NCBI GenBank assembly: GCA_001600635.1
Contig: BCKL01000013.1
Span: forward strand, 290,397-354,396
DNA from: Leucosporidium creatinivorum
Taxonomy: Eukaryota; Basidiomycota; Microbotryomycetes; Leucosporidiales; Leucosporidiaceae
DNA length: 64,000 nucleotides
Direction: 5' to 3'
The position numbers and the translations under genes are program-made. This document shows positions 356-7,682 of this stretch, in pieces (positions within the stretch are counted from its first letter, which is position 1; the number at the start of each line of letters is the position of its first letter). The notes under the pieces were generated by a model. That model ran no database searches. It was given only the letters and a program-made list of their open reading frames with translations, and was not told the origin of the DNA.

Positions 356-1480
356 CCGACGAACTGGAGACGGGCGTTGAGCGACAGTCAGCGAAGCTAT
401 AGAGAGTCTAATAGTGATAGAAGGGAGGGGACCTACATCAGCGGAAGACGACAGGTATAATCCAAATCGCTTGAAGTCGGTGAGTGGTCGGTGGGAGGGG
501 TGGCGAGAGAGAGAGAGAGCTCGGAGGTTCGGCCGTCAAAAGTCGCTGGTCTCGGAGCCTTTCACGCCGCTCCCGACCTCGTGCTCGAGTACCTAGTGTG
601 TGAGCTCCTGTAGCTCTGATTCTTGCTTGAAAGGGAGCGCATCAGCTGCACCAACAGCTGCACCGGAAGCCGGCGACTCGCGCTCATCTTCTCGACCGAC
701 AAAGGGCAAAGCGCTGTGCAAGGACAGATCTTCAGTGCACAAAAGGCTGGTACAAGCACAAGTGAGCTTCTCTTCCTCCCGCTGAGGATCAAGCTGTACG
801 GTATTGTCCTTCGTCGGTCGCGTGAAACCATCGCCGAGCCATCCCTTTCGGCTCGTCCTGCCAAGCCTTGAGAAGGCGCAGTGCTCTCGAGACGGGCTAC
901 CAAGACTACAGAGCGCTTTATCGGACTGCTGTAGTCGCCTCCTCGACTTTGTAGCGCCGCATCCGAGCACTTCGAGGCCGACCTCACACTCGCCGAGCAA
1001 AGCACCTCACCGAGCAAAGCCTCTCGCACCTCCCGCTACATGAACGGAACGCAAGACAGCGCACTGCTGCTTCGACTTCCTCTTCCTTCTCGCCGCGCCT
1101 CGCAAGGAAAGACCAACTCGCCTTCGCTGCTCTCGCCCTTGACTCTCGGCTCGCTCGACTTCTCTCCCTCAGCCGCGTAAGGATACGAGGAACCTCAACT
1201 AAGGGAATTCCAAGGAGAGCTATAGGGTAGGTAGGTGCTTTAATCAAACGTCCCATCCATCAACCGCCAAAGGCGGCCTTCAAGAACAGGGCGAGTCAAG
1301 AAAAGGGAAGGGGGAAGGGGAGAGAAGGGAGAAGGGAGAGGGGGTACTGCAGAGGTCGAGGGAGCAATTTGATTCGGAGTCGTGTGTACTGGGACAAGTG
1401 TGAAGAGCGCAGAGAACGGGGAGGGGGGGAACTTTGGACGAGACGAGCGAGCATTCTTGGGGGGGGAGACGACGAGAGGC
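356..1480. other. Stretch without a recognised coding gene
   Basis: Open frames of 60-155 codons occur on both strands but none shows a domain, and there are no convincing donor/branch/acceptor sets apart from the 5' intron of the left-edge gene (about 364-436). The part from 1260 to 1480 is purine-rich on the plus strand and probably includes the 3' UTR of the RRM gene. I see nothing else. Confidence 0.5.
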
Positions 1481-1544
1481 CTGTTCGTTCGAGGTCAGCG
1501 AGCGCTCCTTCGTCTCTTCCCGCCTCGAGAGAAGTGAAGCTCAC
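1481..1544 (-). other. Probable 3' UTR intron of the RRM gene
   Basis: Reading the minus strand, a GTGAGC donor at 1544 is followed by a GCTCGCTGACC branch site and a GAACAG acceptor ending at 1481 (64 nt). It lies about 79 nt after the stop codon at 1623. No coding frame of the gene continues through it. Confidence 0.55.
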
Positions 1545-1622
1545 CACTAACTCAATACAGACAAGGAATCAAAACGGGGGACCGGAGAAGGACGAGGGCG
1601 CGGAAACCGAGCGAGGGCAGTT

Positions 1623-4050
1623 TTAGTACTGGCCCTGGCCTCCGTAAGGAGCTCCAGCGCCGTATCCTCCCTGACCGCCCTGCTGGGGCTGTCCTCCGTA
1701 GCCTCCAGCCTGGGGGGCTCCTCCGTAGCCGCCGGCCTGCTGTCCTCCGTAGGCGCCCTGCTGTCCTCCGTAGCCCTGGTCCTGGCCTCCGTCTGTAGGT
1801 GAGGAGATGGGGAAGGAGTCAGCGAGTGGTCAAGTCGAGGCGAGGGGGGGCTCGACGCCAAGAAGAGAGGAAGGAGAAGCGACTCACAGCCACCCTGGCC
1901 ACCCTGCTGTCCACCGTATCCTCCTCCGTATCCGCCCTGTCCTCCTCCGTCTGTAGTAGAGTCAAAGCGAGAGAGAGAGAGTCAGCGACCGTCGTCAAAC
2001 CGATGTGGGGTGAGCTGTGAAGGCTCGGCGAGAAGGGAGGAGACGTGAAGAGCGGCGACGGAAAGGCGAAAGGAGAAGGGAGAAAAGGAGAAACGAAACG
2101 CACAGCCACCCTGTCCACCGTATCCCCCCTGTCCTCCTCCGTATCCTCCTCCGTCTGTTTGCAAACGAAGAGAAAGGACGAGTCGCTCAAGTCAGTTCAG
2201 CCGTTCTCGGTCGAGGCGAGTCGTTCAGGAAGAGCCCTATAGCACGAGAAAAGGAAAGGGAGGGGGGGTCACTCACATCCTCCACCGTCTGCTCGAGCAA
2301 ACGACGGTGAGAGGACGATATCGAGCGAGGCGAGGGGGATCAAAAGGGAAAGGAAGAGACGAGGAAAGGGTCAGATCCACCGGTGTTGGAACGCTTAACA
2401 AAGAGGGGAGGGGGCGAATAGGGCTAGATAGTAGCCGCTGTAGCCGCGATATCTGCTCGAAGACCGAGCTCGCGCGCGCGCCGAGAAGAGAAAAGAGAGA
2501 AAGGTTGAACGTACATCCTCCTCCTCCGTATCCTCCTCCTCCTCCGCCACCGGTGCGCTGGTTGGCGATGTTGACGCGGACGCGACGGCCGTCTGTGAGT
2601 GGTAACGAGTGGGGAGGAGGGAGAGTGAGAGGGTTAGCGAGCGTTCGACCTAGGCGGCGAGACGAGGGAGGAGGGCAAAGACTCACCCTAATAGCGAGCA
2701 AGACCCAACGTAGACAAGGCAAAGCGAGGTAGCAATGTCACCGAGTTACCGAGGCGAGAGCGTTCACGAGTGCAGAGTCGAGTCGATTCGTTCAACGAAG
2801 CCAAAGATAGCCGCACGGGACACGTTGAGGGAGAACATGCGAGAGAAGGGAAAGAGAATGGGATAACCGAGAGTCAGGAATCACACGCGCGAATCATACC
2901 CCGTTGGGGTTTGGGTTGGTAGGTGGGGGGCGAGGCGAGGTCGTCGAGGCGAGTCGCCGAAGAAGGGGGCGGTGGGGAGGGAAGAGATCCAAACCCGAGT
3001 CTCGTTGAGCTAGCACCACAGCTGTCAATCTCGACGAGACGGCCAGCTGCAGCGCCCTTCCTCCTCTTTCCTTCCTCGCTCGGCTCGATACGGCGGAGGA
3101 TCAGCCCTCTCCTCGGGCGCTCTGCTCTGCACCTCCGCTCCACCCGACGTCCTCGACGCTCCGACTCGCCCGAGAATGCAGAAGACGAGAGACTGGAAAA
3201 GAGAAACGCACGAGCTCCTGGTCGTTCATAGCCTGGATGGCGGCGTCAGCCTCGGCCTGCTGGGAGAAGGTGACGAAGCCGAAGCCACGCGAGCGGCCGG
3301 TTCCGGGCTCGCTGTATCATGTCAAATGGTGAGGAAGGAAGAGAGGGGAAGGTCAGCTCCTACGTCCTACAGCGTCGAACTGGCCTCGAGGGGCCGCCCA
3401 AGAGGAAAACGCACGTCATGACGATGCAGTCGATGACCTGGCCGAACTGGGAGAAGGCATCGCGGAGCGAGTCGTTGTTGGTTCCCCTGTAGTATCAGAG
3501 ATGCGAGTCAGCTCGCTGTAGCCTCCGAAAGCAAGACCCAACCCTCGGAGGAAAACAAGGTTGACGCCTTCTCGACCTCGCAAAGGCGCGTGACGAGGAG
3601 GGTCCTTCCCTTGCTCGCCTCTGAGGCTGTAGGAAAACAGAGGACTCACCAGGAGAGGTTTCCGCTGTAGTCGAGTAGATCAAGATGAGATCAGGCTGGT
3701 CAGCAAGCGCTGGGAAGGGGTGAACGAGTCGCCTCGAAGCAACGCAACGACTCTGCGCAACGTGCTGGTCGGAGACTCTGGCGGTCGAACGAGAGCAAAG
3801 GGAGCTCACCAGTCTGTGGGAATAAAGAGATACAGAGTCAGTTCTCCTGTTCCGTCCAGCGGTGCACCTGTAGAGCAGCCAGCAGCCCTGGTTGATCGCA
3901 GAGGAGATGGAACCCTCTCGTCGCTTTGCCCAGGGTTGCTCCTGCTCCTATAGTGGGAGACGATAGACCTACAGATCTTGGCAGCCCTGTTGTACAAATG
4001 CGAGACATCAGTATGTACCTCGTCAGACCCAGCAGGAGCCAAACTGACAT
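1623..4050 (-). CDS. Glycine-rich RNA-binding protein, one RRM plus YGG-rich tail
   Basis: Predicted 193 aa from 12 coding exons: 4050-4049, 3986-3973, 3813-3810, 3664-3650, 3486-3415, 3311-3212, 2687, 2592-2515, 2288-2277, 2154-2104, 1950-about 1888 and 1792-1623. All joins use GT-AG and keep phase. Residues about 4-80 form an RRM with RNP2 KIYCGNLSW and RNP1 [10 protein letters not shown], followed by [10 protein letters not shown]. The remaining ~100 residues are Gly/Tyr/Gln repeats (YGGQ, YGGG). Such proteins bind RNA in nucleus and cytoplasm and act in RNA processing, stress response and often in control of their own splicing (family knowledge). The start is chosen because joining AT to GGCTGCC gives MAAKIYCGN, placing the start just before the RRM as is usual. 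Two microexons, a split start codon and a 3' UTR intron are listed separately. The family call is firm; the 1-nt exon is an inference. Confidence 0.88.
2687..2687 (-). other. Candidate 1-nucleotide microexon (G)
   Basis: The RRM exon 3311-3212 ends in GAG CTC; the next clear exon at 2592 begins ACGGCCGTCGC. One extra G is needed to give E-L-D-G-R-R, the usual RRM sequence. At 2687 a single G sits between an acceptor (CTATTAG) and a consensus donor (GTGAGT). The intron after it (2686-2593) has a CGCTAACCC branch site and a CACAG acceptor. The three bases before the G read TAG in frame, so the exon cannot be longer in that frame. Confidence 0.6.
3810..3813 (-). other. 4-nucleotide microexon (ACTG)
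   Basis: On the minus strand the order is CCACAG, ACTG, GTGAGC. Joining ATC-T (exon ending 3973), AC-TG (this exon) and C-GGA (exon starting 3664) gives K-I-Y-C-G-N-L-S, the RNP2 motif. Skipping it shifts the frame and destroys the RRM. Confidence 0.75.
3987..4048 (-). other. Intron inside the start codon of the RRM gene (AT|G)
   Basis: AT at 4050-4049 is followed by a GTCAGT donor, TCTGACG and ACTGATG branch-like sites and an ACAACAG acceptor; the next exon begins GGCTGCC. The join creates ATG GCT GCC AAG. No other in-frame ATG was found in a position that keeps the RRM frame. Confidence 0.6.
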
Positions 4051-4743
4051 TATTTGTGAAGTTGAAGAGAAGTGGGTGAGGGAGAGGAGCGAGGCTGCAT
4101 CGCTGGATCGAAGGGGTGGATTGAGAGGGCGATTCTTTTCGCTTGTAAAGAGGTAGGAAGACTCGGTAGAGCTTTCTGAGACTAGTAGATTACACTTGAC
4201 CTTACCAGCTCTTCTGAGAGACGTTGAGGAGCCTGCAGAAGCAGTCGCCGATCGAGCAGGTGCTCTCCCGAGAGCTGACGTGCAGATGTGGGCCATTCTG
4301 ACGGTCTGATGGGCAACATCTCTCGCGCTTCTCATCTCTGTAACCCTAGAGAGAAGCTCTCGCCCCGACAACCGAGACCAGAGCCCGCATCAGCGGCCAA
4401 GCTGCTCTCGCGACCGTCGCCGAAGCGCGAGGGATTCGTAGGGTCTGGGGAGGTGAACGACGATGCGATTGTTGCTCCTGCTATCTCTCGTGTCTCTAAT
4501 ATGCTCTTTTGAGATCTGGTGGGAGAGGCGGGTGAGCAGGCGCAGTGAGAGAGCCGAGAGGAGAGGCGAACGAACCTAATGCATGAGCCTGCTCCCATGG
4601 CTTTCGACGATGTACAACAGCGAAGGTCATCGGGGCCCCCACAAACTTACTCTGCTTCTCCCTGTAGCGAGGACGAAGTCAGCTCACAGCTCTGCTCCGA
4701 AGCAGCTCTCCCCTCAACTCACCTTGCGCCGAACCCTCCCTTC
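4051..4743. other. Promoter/5' UTR region of the RRM gene
   Basis: No coding frame recognised. On the minus strand a good intron (GTGAGT donor at 4726, GAGCTGACTTC branch, CTACAG acceptor at 4668) lies just after the stop of the flavin-reductase gene; it may be a 3' UTR intron of that gene. The rest probably holds the RRM gene's promoter and leader. Confidence 0.4.
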
Positions 4744-5548: not shown

Positions 5549-7682
5549 ATGAACTTTGCCGCACTCAAAGCCAAAGCTGTAAGGAGCTCTGCCCTTCTAC
5601 CCTCCTACACCCCAACTAAAGCTCTCGTCCCCACAGGCCGAAACAGCTAAAGACGCCCGCTCCCGCGCCTCCGCCCCTCCCCGTACAACAGCCAAATATC
5701 AACCCGTCCGGCCCGAAGATGTAGCCAACCAACCCTCTCTCACCCCTTCCGAACGATTCGCCCAATCCACGGTTCTACAGCACCAGCAGGCGATTCACAG
5801 GCCGCCCCCGCCGCCCATTCGTTCCAGGTCGAGCAATGGGGCTGAGTCGGAGGGGAAACCTACACTTCCTGCGAGGAGCTATGGCGCTGCTGCTCCCCCT
5901 GCTCTGCCGAGCAGAACAGCTTCCTACGCTTCCTCCTCCTCGGCCACGAGCGCAGGCGGCGGTGCACCTCCCGCTCCTCCCGCTCCTCCTCAATCCACCC
6001 GATCCACCCCAGCCCCTCCCTACCAGCATGCAGTAGCACACGATCTGCCGAAACCTGCGCCCCCTCCGAGGACTCTCAGTCCGCCGACCCATGCGCCTTC
6101 GCCGCCGCCAAGACAGGCGAGCTCGGGAAGGGAGGGCCGAGCCACCGCTGCTGCTGGAGGAGGAGGAAGGACAGAGTTCAAAAAGTTCTCAGAGTATGAT
6201 CAGCAGGATAGGGAGGTCATGTTTGCTATGCTCGACTCGGTGGGTCCTGTTCTCGCTCTTCCCTTCCCTCGGCGCTGGAGTCGGAGCTGACCTCTCGCCG
6301 CCGACGCAGTTCTTCGAAGCTCGACTCAAAGGAGACACCTCGAGACCCATGCCTCAAGGCTTCGTCGCTGTAGGATCAACACCTCGAGTCGTTGCTCCCG
6401 TGCCCAAGATGGGAGCGAGCCACGCGCCGAGTCCGAGCCCAAGTGTCGACGTTGTACGTCGAGGCTTCGCTTCTTCCACTCCTCTCTACCGCACGCTAAC
6501 CTCGCCCTTCTCGAACAGGCTCCCCCACCAATCGCTCTCTCCACGCGCCCCTCCCTGCGCTCCAACCCCTCCTCCTCCGCCTCCTCCTCTTCAACGCCCT
6601 CCTACCCGCCCCCCTCCGCCCACTCCTCCTCCGCCCTCACCCTCTCGCACTACCTCCTCTCCACCCCCTTCCCCTCACCACCCTTCTACTCCCTCCCCTC
6701 CGTCCCCCTCCCTCCCCCAATCGCCTCCCGCTCGGACATCCGTTACTCGGGGTCGTGGACGCAGACTGGCTCTCAAAAAGCAGTGATTGGGTTCGTCTTG
6801 TTTGGAGATGCCAGTTGTTGTTGGTGGAGGATGAGTTGGGACGTCTCCCGCCCTCCTGGAGGGTCGAACGAGAAGAGGGAGGTGAGATACTCTGCTATCC
6901 CTTCGGCCTGGGACGGGGAGCGGCTATACGCTGCTAGCGAGAGGTACGGTCCAGGGATCGTCGCCTTCGGACAGCGAGCGGTGGCGGGTGGAAGACCTAT
7001 AGCCCGGGGGGAGTGCTGGGACCTTGCTGCCGAGGCGCTCACTTCTGTTGGCGCTCAGCTACCGGAGAAGGAGGAGCCGTTCCCGAGTATTGGGAGGACC
7101 CATGGGCATTGGATCTATTACTGTCGGGCTACGGGAGATGGGGGAGCAAAGGGGACGTGGAGGGGAGGAGATGTGTATGTCAGGCCGGGGGATGTGGTCG
7201 AATGGAGGAAGGTTAGGATTAGAGAGGTCGGGATGGCACAAGGGAGCTACAGTACGCTGGGAGATCCGGATGTGAGTGATTGCTCTGTCTCTTCTCTTCT
7301 CTTCCGCTCTCCTTCGCCGACCCTCGGCGCCTTCATTGCTCGGCCTGGCGAACGCTGACCCCCCCCCCTCCTTCCATCCCCTCCAACCCACGCACAGCAC
7401 ACCGCCCTCATCCTCTCCGCCTCCCCACCCACCACCCTCCCCTCCCTCTCCCCCTCAACCCTACTAGACACCTCCTACCCCCTCTCCTCCCTCCACTCCC
7501 TCACCGTCGCCGAACAATCCCCGGGCCAACCCCCGCGCGAAAGGACCTACGATCTCACTACCATGACGGAGGCAGAGGTGTGGATTTATAGGCCCGTGGG
7601 GTTGAGAGAGTATGTTGGGACGGGGGTGGAGGCGGTTTGGCCCCCGCCGAAGGGAGTGGCGAGGGAGGTGGGGAGTGCTTGA
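5549..7682 (+). CDS. BBC1: BBC1/MTI1-like actin cytoskeleton protein (C-terminal BBC1 domain)
   Basis: Five exons, 5549-5578, 5637-6239, 6310-6450, 6519-7271 and 7398-7682, all phase 0, give 603 aa. Residues about 11-330 are Pro/Ser/Ala-rich and disordered, with poly-Pro runs that could bind SH3 domains. A segment FKKFSEYDQQDREVMFAMLD precedes the second intron. The C-terminal ~270 residues form the conserved domain seen at the end of fungal Bbc1: SWTQTGSQKAVIGFVLFG, then RGECWDLAAEALTSVGAQL, GHWIYYCRATG and, in the last exon, HTALILSASPP and EAEVWIYRPVGLREYVG. Bbc1 works at cortical actin patches and restrains Las17/myosin-I-driven actin assembly during endocytosis. No SH3 domain is visible at the N-terminus, where yeast Bbc1 has one; it may be absent or in an unrecognised upstream exon. 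Symbol assigned by similarity recalled from the family. Confidence 0.75.

Follow-up and report, generated by a model that had tools for sequence, protein, structure and literature searches.

A probable single-base exon in an RRM/glycine-rich RNA-binding protein gene of Leucosporidium creatinivorum

The gene and its architecture

The window analysed here is a 64,000-nt stretch of the genome of the basidiomycete Leucosporidium creatinivorum (contig BCKL01000013.1), and its minus strand carries, between about 4050 and 1623, a gene whose proposed product of 193 amino acids consists of one RRM and a glycine-rich tail. Pfam RRM_1 (PF00076) matches residues 5–75 with 80.1 bits and over its full length (profile positions 1–70 of 70), and what follows is GYGG-rich, which places the protein among those that combine an RRM with a glycine-rich tail. 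The gene model comprises 11 introns of 62–524 nt and includes tiny exons of 14, 4, 15, 1 and 12 nt. All 11 donors, those of the two introns around the single base included, read GTNNGY; the acceptor is CAG in ten introns and TAG only in the 524-nt intron preceding the single base, which is more than twice as long as the next longest (226 nt). The first intron (4048–3987, 62 nt) seems to split the start codon as AT/G. The features are as follows, those within the gene being taken from the gene model unless another basis is given.

~4050 to 1623, minus strand: RRM/glycine-rich RNA-binding protein gene, read from the sequence
4049–4050, minus strand: first two letters (AT) of the start codon that seems to be split; the first exon ends here and donor gtcagt follows
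3973–3986, minus strand: 14-nt exon, the first G of which completes the start codon AT-G
3810–3813, minus strand: 4-nt exon ACTG (KIY-C; completes Tyr and begins Cys)
3650–3664, minus strand: 15-nt exon CGGAAACCTCTCCTG
3415–3486, minus strand: 72-nt RRM exon
3212–3311, minus strand: upstream exon, 100 nt, ending CAG GAG CTC (Q-E-L)
2688–3211, minus strand: 524-nt intron GTGCGT..TATTAG, preceding the single base
2690–3000, minus strand: 311 nt without any AG, up to the TAG acceptor of the proposed single-base exon (AG scan)
2873–2877, minus strand: the only CTGAC of the 524-nt intron, a candidate branch site with its A 187 nt from the acceptor (motif search)
2687, minus strand: proposed single-base exon G, base 1 of the Asp codon in E-L-D-G-R-R (TATTAG/G/GTGAGT and reading frame)
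2593–2686, minus strand: 94-nt intron GTGAGT..CTAAC..TCACAG, following the single base
2515–2592, minus strand: downstream exon, 78 nt, beginning AC GGC CGT CGC
2277–2288, minus strand: 12-nt exon, glycine-rich tail
2104–2154, minus strand: 51-nt exon, glycine-rich tail
1888–1950, minus strand: 63-nt exon, glycine-rich tail
1623–1792, minus strand: last coding exon, 170 nt, with the stop codon

Two further observations concern the 3′ part of the gene. Every exon of the glycine-rich tail, like the exon at 2592, opens with ACGG after CAG, and four introns within the tail (2592–1623, minus strand) interrupt a tyrosine codon as T/AC; these shared exon starts and intron positions suggest repeated exon–intron duplication or intron gain. 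In addition, a possible 3′ UTR intron lies at 1544–1481 on the minus strand (GTGAGC ... CTGAC ... AACAG).

A single G between two proposed introns

The exon at 3311–3212 ends CAGGAGCTC and is followed by the donor gtgcgt, and the exon at 2592–2515 is preceded by tcacag and begins ACGG. An earlier note on this DNA had held that the two cannot be joined in the conserved frame; its coordinates proved exact, and direct joining indeed leaves the protein one base out of frame. Adding the G at 2687 restores a frame that stays open to the stop codon after 193 amino acids, the 619-nt gap then being composed of a 524-nt intron, one base and a 94-nt intron. The base lies between an AG acceptor and a GT donor (TATTAG/G/GTGAGT, just as the note had described it), both introns are canonical GT-AG, and the CTAAC branch and CACAG acceptor ascribed to the 94-nt intron are both present, with the branch A 42 nt from the intron end. 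The canonical E-L-D-G-R-R that the G had been said to create is supported by the open 193-aa frame and by the comparison of splice models described below, and this ranking, together with the frameshift on direct joining, indicates that the base is needed for the reading frame of the conserved protein.

Chance estimates for the splice-site pattern came from its frequency over the whole window, both strands counted, applied to the 529 eligible nt of the gap, and from 2000 dinucleotide shuffles; they are post hoc, as the author of the earlier note had looked for such a site. At each of three levels of stringency the gap holds one match: [CT]AG.GT..G[CT] (0.103 expected; present in 140 of the 2000 shuffles), [CT]AG.GT[AG].G[CT] (0.045 expected; 50 of 2000) and [CT]AG.GT[AG]AGT (0.017 expected; 7 of 2000).

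We then enumerated 4970 GT-AG models between 3311 and 2515, of which 323 have one intron and the rest two. Introns were at least 45 nt long; in two-intron models, the first donor was allowed up to 20 nt inside the upstream exon or up to 40 nt beyond its end, and the last acceptor up to 20 nt ahead of the next exon or up to about 48 nt within it. Each model was scored against an HMM of 95 homologues, which derive from the best 120 of 1097 protein matches: 14 of these (10 named Microbotryomycetes and 4 look-alikes) were set aside, and 11 of the remaining 106 were dropped for want of the pattern used to cut the domain. Only 308 of the 4970 models are open and in frame, and just two of the 308 use GTNNGY donors and YAG acceptors as the nine other introns of the gene do. 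One of the two is the model with the one-base exon, which has the best score (130.4 bits); the other deletes 12 residues and reaches 114.3 bits. The one-base-exon model is thus the only one among the 4970 that both keeps the RRM end and has splice sites of this kind. Longer exons within the gap were covered by the one- and two-intron enumeration, and all of them scored lower or had poorer sites.

The composition of the 524-nt intron is unusual as well. Its first 211 nt contain 26 AG dinucleotides, after which there is none for 311 nt; no other AG-free stretch of the window, whichever the strand, is as long. (The runner-up, 244 nt at 6519–6762 on the plus strand, is very C-rich, with 145 C.) No dinucleotide shuffle of the intron reached such a run (0 of 2000), and just one of 970 window stretches of 524 nt contains such a run, which must be the present one. 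Given the 41 A's of the run and the frequency with which G follows A in the other introns of the gene (59/188), its probability is about 2e-7, and about 0.03 at the lower AG rate found between branch and acceptor in those introns (4/50). The consensus CTNAY branch nearest to the acceptor is the one 187 nt away, and within 75 nt of the TAG acceptor there are just GTAAC and GTGAC; the nine other introns all have a CTGAC no more than 83 nt from the acceptor, eight of them no more than 42 nt. The AG-free zone ends precisely at the TAG before the G and suggests a distant branch point; the 524-nt intron probably uses the CTGAC at 2877–2873, our candidate for that site. An open reading frame of a relative that reads through the intron (P0219) resembles about 3000–2780 of the minus strand (FLTLGYP.LFSPFS); judged by this peptide, part of the intron, including the candidate branch site, is conserved with P0219. 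RNA folding that would bring the branch and the acceptor together was nothing special (z 0.52), and a search for structured RNA over 1200–4400 gave six Rfam matches, all far below the gathering scores.

The same junction in related fungi

Relatives were compared as proteins, using the best 120 of 1097 and the best 120 of 128 matches. Among the contigs searched for DNA of relatives, nothing that could pass for closely related occurred in the best 80 of 549 matches (with bacterial or archaeal titles, identity at most 59%) or in the best 80 of 84 viral contig matches (identity at most 53%). Among the matches listed, an 18-residue signature is shared by named relatives from Sporobolomyces, Rhodosporidiobolus, Rhodotorula and Microbotryum. 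Their lineages confirm the class Microbotryomycetes for Sporobolomyces johnsonii and Microbotryum saponariae; Rhodosporidiobolus and Rhodotorula we take to belong to it too. The present genome would accordingly fall within this class or close to it.

In all ten named Microbotryomycete proteins among the matches listed, the 18-residue signature and NLSWGT are intact, the deposited models fail right after QEL, and QELDGRR is found in none. Six of these models, among the matches listed, contain inserts between QEL and DGRR, of 15 (P0008), 46 (P0010), 19 (P0011), 24 (P0014), 68 (P0022) and 16 aa (P0035), which match neither one another nor the insert of the open reading frame P0217 at E ≤ 1. Two others (P0013 and P0027) never reach DGRR. 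The remaining two, from Microbotryum (P0019 and P0020), carry the frameshift predicted from direct joining: they read QEL-TVDAFASTSPT and QEL-MVDAFASTSPT, near the direct-join frame of L. creatinivorum. In a blastp search with the direct-join peptide, P0019 matched with 72% identity over 60 aa (E 2e-26) and P0020 with E 5e-25, much of the score coming from the in-frame half (in P0019, 29 of 34 residues identical there and 14 of 26 in the out-of-frame half). For comparison, a loose motif of the strand concerned, xG[RQK]x[IVL], is present in 108 of the best 120 of the 1097 proteins, the six insert-bearing models included. KIY[CV]GNLSW, encoded around the 4-nt exon, is missing in two of the ten named relatives listed (P0022 and P0027), the models of which fail at that end of the gene too. 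Four proteins with a similar signature have QELDGRR intact (P0012, P0015, P0017 and P0034). They come from short contigs, which leads us to regard them as probable spliced transcripts. P0015 looks like one from this clade, and its intact reading would then favour the one-base exon; if any of the four were genomic and of this clade, that lineage would be without the one-base deficit.

It thus looks as if gene finders ran into one and the same one-base deficit in both orders. Since the models break alike in relatives of two orders, an assembly error confined to the present genome is unlikely; the break is probably an old trait shared by these fungi and not a product of sequencing. A shared one-base exon would explain why the deposited models of ten species fail at one spot.

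Whether relatives could carry the same base was assessed by asking if their peptides can encode an AG-G-GT site 45–130 nt before the acceptor. The open reading frame P0217 runs from QEL through a gap of 514 nt, which is 3k+1, to DGRR, and has one site able to encode YAG/G/GTNNGY (at YRVR), leaving a second intron of 70 nt; P0224, which like P0217 seems to read through the second intron, also has one (at LRVR), leaving 79 nt. Both are able to encode a CTNAC ending 26 nt before the acceptor. The insert of S. blumeae (P0014) starts with GTS, as AG/G GTACGTC would give, but so would 53 of 2853 YAG-preceded starts. Among the remaining inserts, the 139-nt one of P0010, from Rhodosporidiobolus nylandii, has no compatible AG/G/GT site, the sole strict fit in P0022 is poor, at 128 nt, and those of P0008, P0011 and P0035 (46, 58 and 49 nt) are too short to tell. 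Taken singly the YAG/G/GTNNGY signature is weak, occurring also in 345 of 3000 simulated introns and 51 of 508 open window stretches. The stretch before the site can be encoded without AG over 128 codons in P0217 (matched by 225 of 3000 simulations and 23 of 407 window stretches) and over 102 codons in P0224 (342 of 3000 and 41 of 611), which is in both cases compatible with an AG-free zone, if weakly so. Together, these peptides make it probable that relatives carry the same single base.

In our view, G 2687 is very likely a genuine one-base exon between two canonical GT-AG introns of the RRM/glycine-rich gene. Counting against it are the TAG acceptor, the remoteness of the consensus branch, the exceptional length of the 524-nt intron and the inserts of relatives that fit poorly or not at all. 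The explanation that comes closest in its product is a single long intron (3211–2593) spliced with a one-base slip, in which the G at 2687 would be a coincidence. The donor starts with G (G/TGCG) and the acceptor ends with G (CACA/G), either of which could supply the base, and the product CTC-G-ACGG would be identical; because the mRNA is the same, RNA reads over CTC-G-ACGG would show the extra G and not its source. A YA/G acceptor before AC is moreover encodable in six of the eight insert and open-reading-frame sequences (all except P0010 and P0035). However, a slip would require a non-canonical intron end to have been kept over two fungal orders, and it explains neither why the AG-free zone ends at the TAG at 2688 nor the compatible AG/G/GT sites in P0217, P0224 and P0014, so that we regard it as decidedly unlikely. 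The loss of one base at the exon edge in sequencing or assembly (CTCG/GTGCGT becoming CTC/GTGCGT) would give exactly the picture seen in one genome, but is made extremely improbable by the breakage of the same junction in all ten named relatives listed, from two orders, with a matching frameshift in the two Microbotryum models. Indeed, V-R follows QEL directly, as CTC GTG CGT would have it, in R. toruloides (P0013), in R. sphaerocarpa (P0035) and in the open reading frames P0122, P0217, P0218, P0219 and P0221, which argues that no G precedes the donor in any of these seven.

Two further rivals are other splice models. A later donor, GTTTCT, which the earlier note had itself named as the rival, would join exon 3311–3208 to 2592 and give E-L-V-H-G-R-R, with one extra residue. 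This model is open and in frame and needs only one intron, but it scores lower than the one-base exon on both the homologue HMM (121.4 versus 130.4 bits) and RRM_1 (74.2 versus 80.1 bits), its donor departs from the GTNNGY common to all 11 donors of the proposed model, and ELVHGRR occurs in none of the ten named relatives listed; we hold it to be very improbable. A different single base, the C at 3158 (GAG/C/GTCGAG, giving E-L-H-G-R-R), achieves the second-best score of all (127.5 bits), yet neither its GAG acceptor nor its GTCGAG donor resembles the remaining splice sites of the gene model, and it leaves the AG-free zone unexplained; we rate its chances as almost nil.

Proposed splicing and known single-base exons

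Simultaneous binding of two splice sites separated by a single base is unlikely, so that the two introns are most likely excised in succession, by intron definition. Removal of the 94-nt intron first would leave TAG/GACGG, an ordinary acceptor followed by an exon; removal of the 524-nt intron first would recreate an ordinary donor, CTCG/GTGAGT, much as happens in recursive splicing. Scanning from the distant branch site at CTGAC 2877–2873 would meet the TAG before the G as its first AG. That this splicing takes place, the order of its steps, the branch site and the presence of the same base in relatives are all predictions. For plant APC11, two splice sites one base apart have likewise been argued to be unlikely to be used together (PMC4674806).

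As to origin, Nelson and Syed suggest that such exons originate when a conserved motif loses a base next to an intron and a cryptic AGGGT rescues the frame (PMC12940212). The same may have happened in the RRM gene; equally, the gene may have acquired a second intron one base 3′ of a phase-0 intron. A search for introner spread over the 27.7-Mb genome (63 contigs) gave no match to either of the two introns other than the intron itself. The paralogue search of the same genome gave 22 matches, two of which are the gene's own exons, the best other match being 40% identical.

If the base is skipped, an open frame continues beyond the normal stop as far as a stop at 1549 (2592–1549, minus strand), giving a product of 218 aa in which RRM strand 4 is lost and an acidic, E/D/T-rich tail replaces the glycine-rich one. 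The base might thus be a frame switch between two proteins, kept in red yeasts and smuts, with the distant branch and the 311-nt AG-free zone making its inclusion slow and adjustable, and with regulation perhaps, to speculate, by the RNA-binding protein itself. We think this quite unlikely, as the open skip frame may simply follow from GGA-rich codons. A glycine-rich RNA-binding protein of Arabidopsis, GRP20, is needed for the retention of micro-exons (PMC10808074).

The earlier note had considered single-nucleotide exons to be reported in plants and none to be described in this group. The restriction to plants does not stand, given the single-nucleotide exon of Fusarium CYP621A, reported in 2026 with 18 SRA reads from two species and conserved in the genus (PMC12940212). 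The literature searched, judged by titles and the starts of abstracts, yielded no single-base exon in Basidiomycota. Larger micro-exons are known from a basidiomycete, in P450 genes of Phanerochaete (PMC1184071; also mentioned in PMC12940212). Like the case presented here, CYP621A is a fungal nuclear gene in which an AG/G/GT arrangement keeps a conserved motif in frame. It is, however, an ascomycete P450 with a 139-nt intronic region in F. graminearum, whereas ours is a basidiomycete RRM gene with a 619-nt gap; and it is confirmed by reads, whereas the exon at 2687 is predicted from the sequence, with the same break in two orders.

The plant examples, APC11 (PMC4674806) and VPS55 (PMC8831610), are conserved and were absent from annotations. 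They resemble the RRM gene in having one base between AG and GT within a long gap (422 nt in Arabidopsis APC11), although the APC11 base of Arabidopsis is an A, proven by base substitution, and ours is a G read from the DNA. A single-base exon is also on record in placozoan mitochondrial cox1.

Related systems share parts of this arrangement. Stwintrons (PMC12403724, PMC9024468) also involve two successive splicing events at one fungal intron position, but in the [D1,2] type the internal intron lies between the first and second bases of the outer donor and no base is kept, whereas one is kept here; at our locus the donor after CTC is GTGCGT, and no internal intron starting with GT follows a lone G there. 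Nor is this a zero-length recursive splice site, one base being present between AG and GT (2689–2685). As with RS-exons (PMC6224609), a donor would form anew at the junction once the first intron is gone, except that only one base would be left in the mRNA here.

In the literature searched, single-base exons are confined to a handful of genes (APC11, VPS55, CYP621A and cox1), and the one-base exon of the RRM gene looks like a further member of this set. If it is common to at least two fungal orders, it would provide a further system, yeasts included, in which to study how the spliceosome handles an exon that is too short for recognition.
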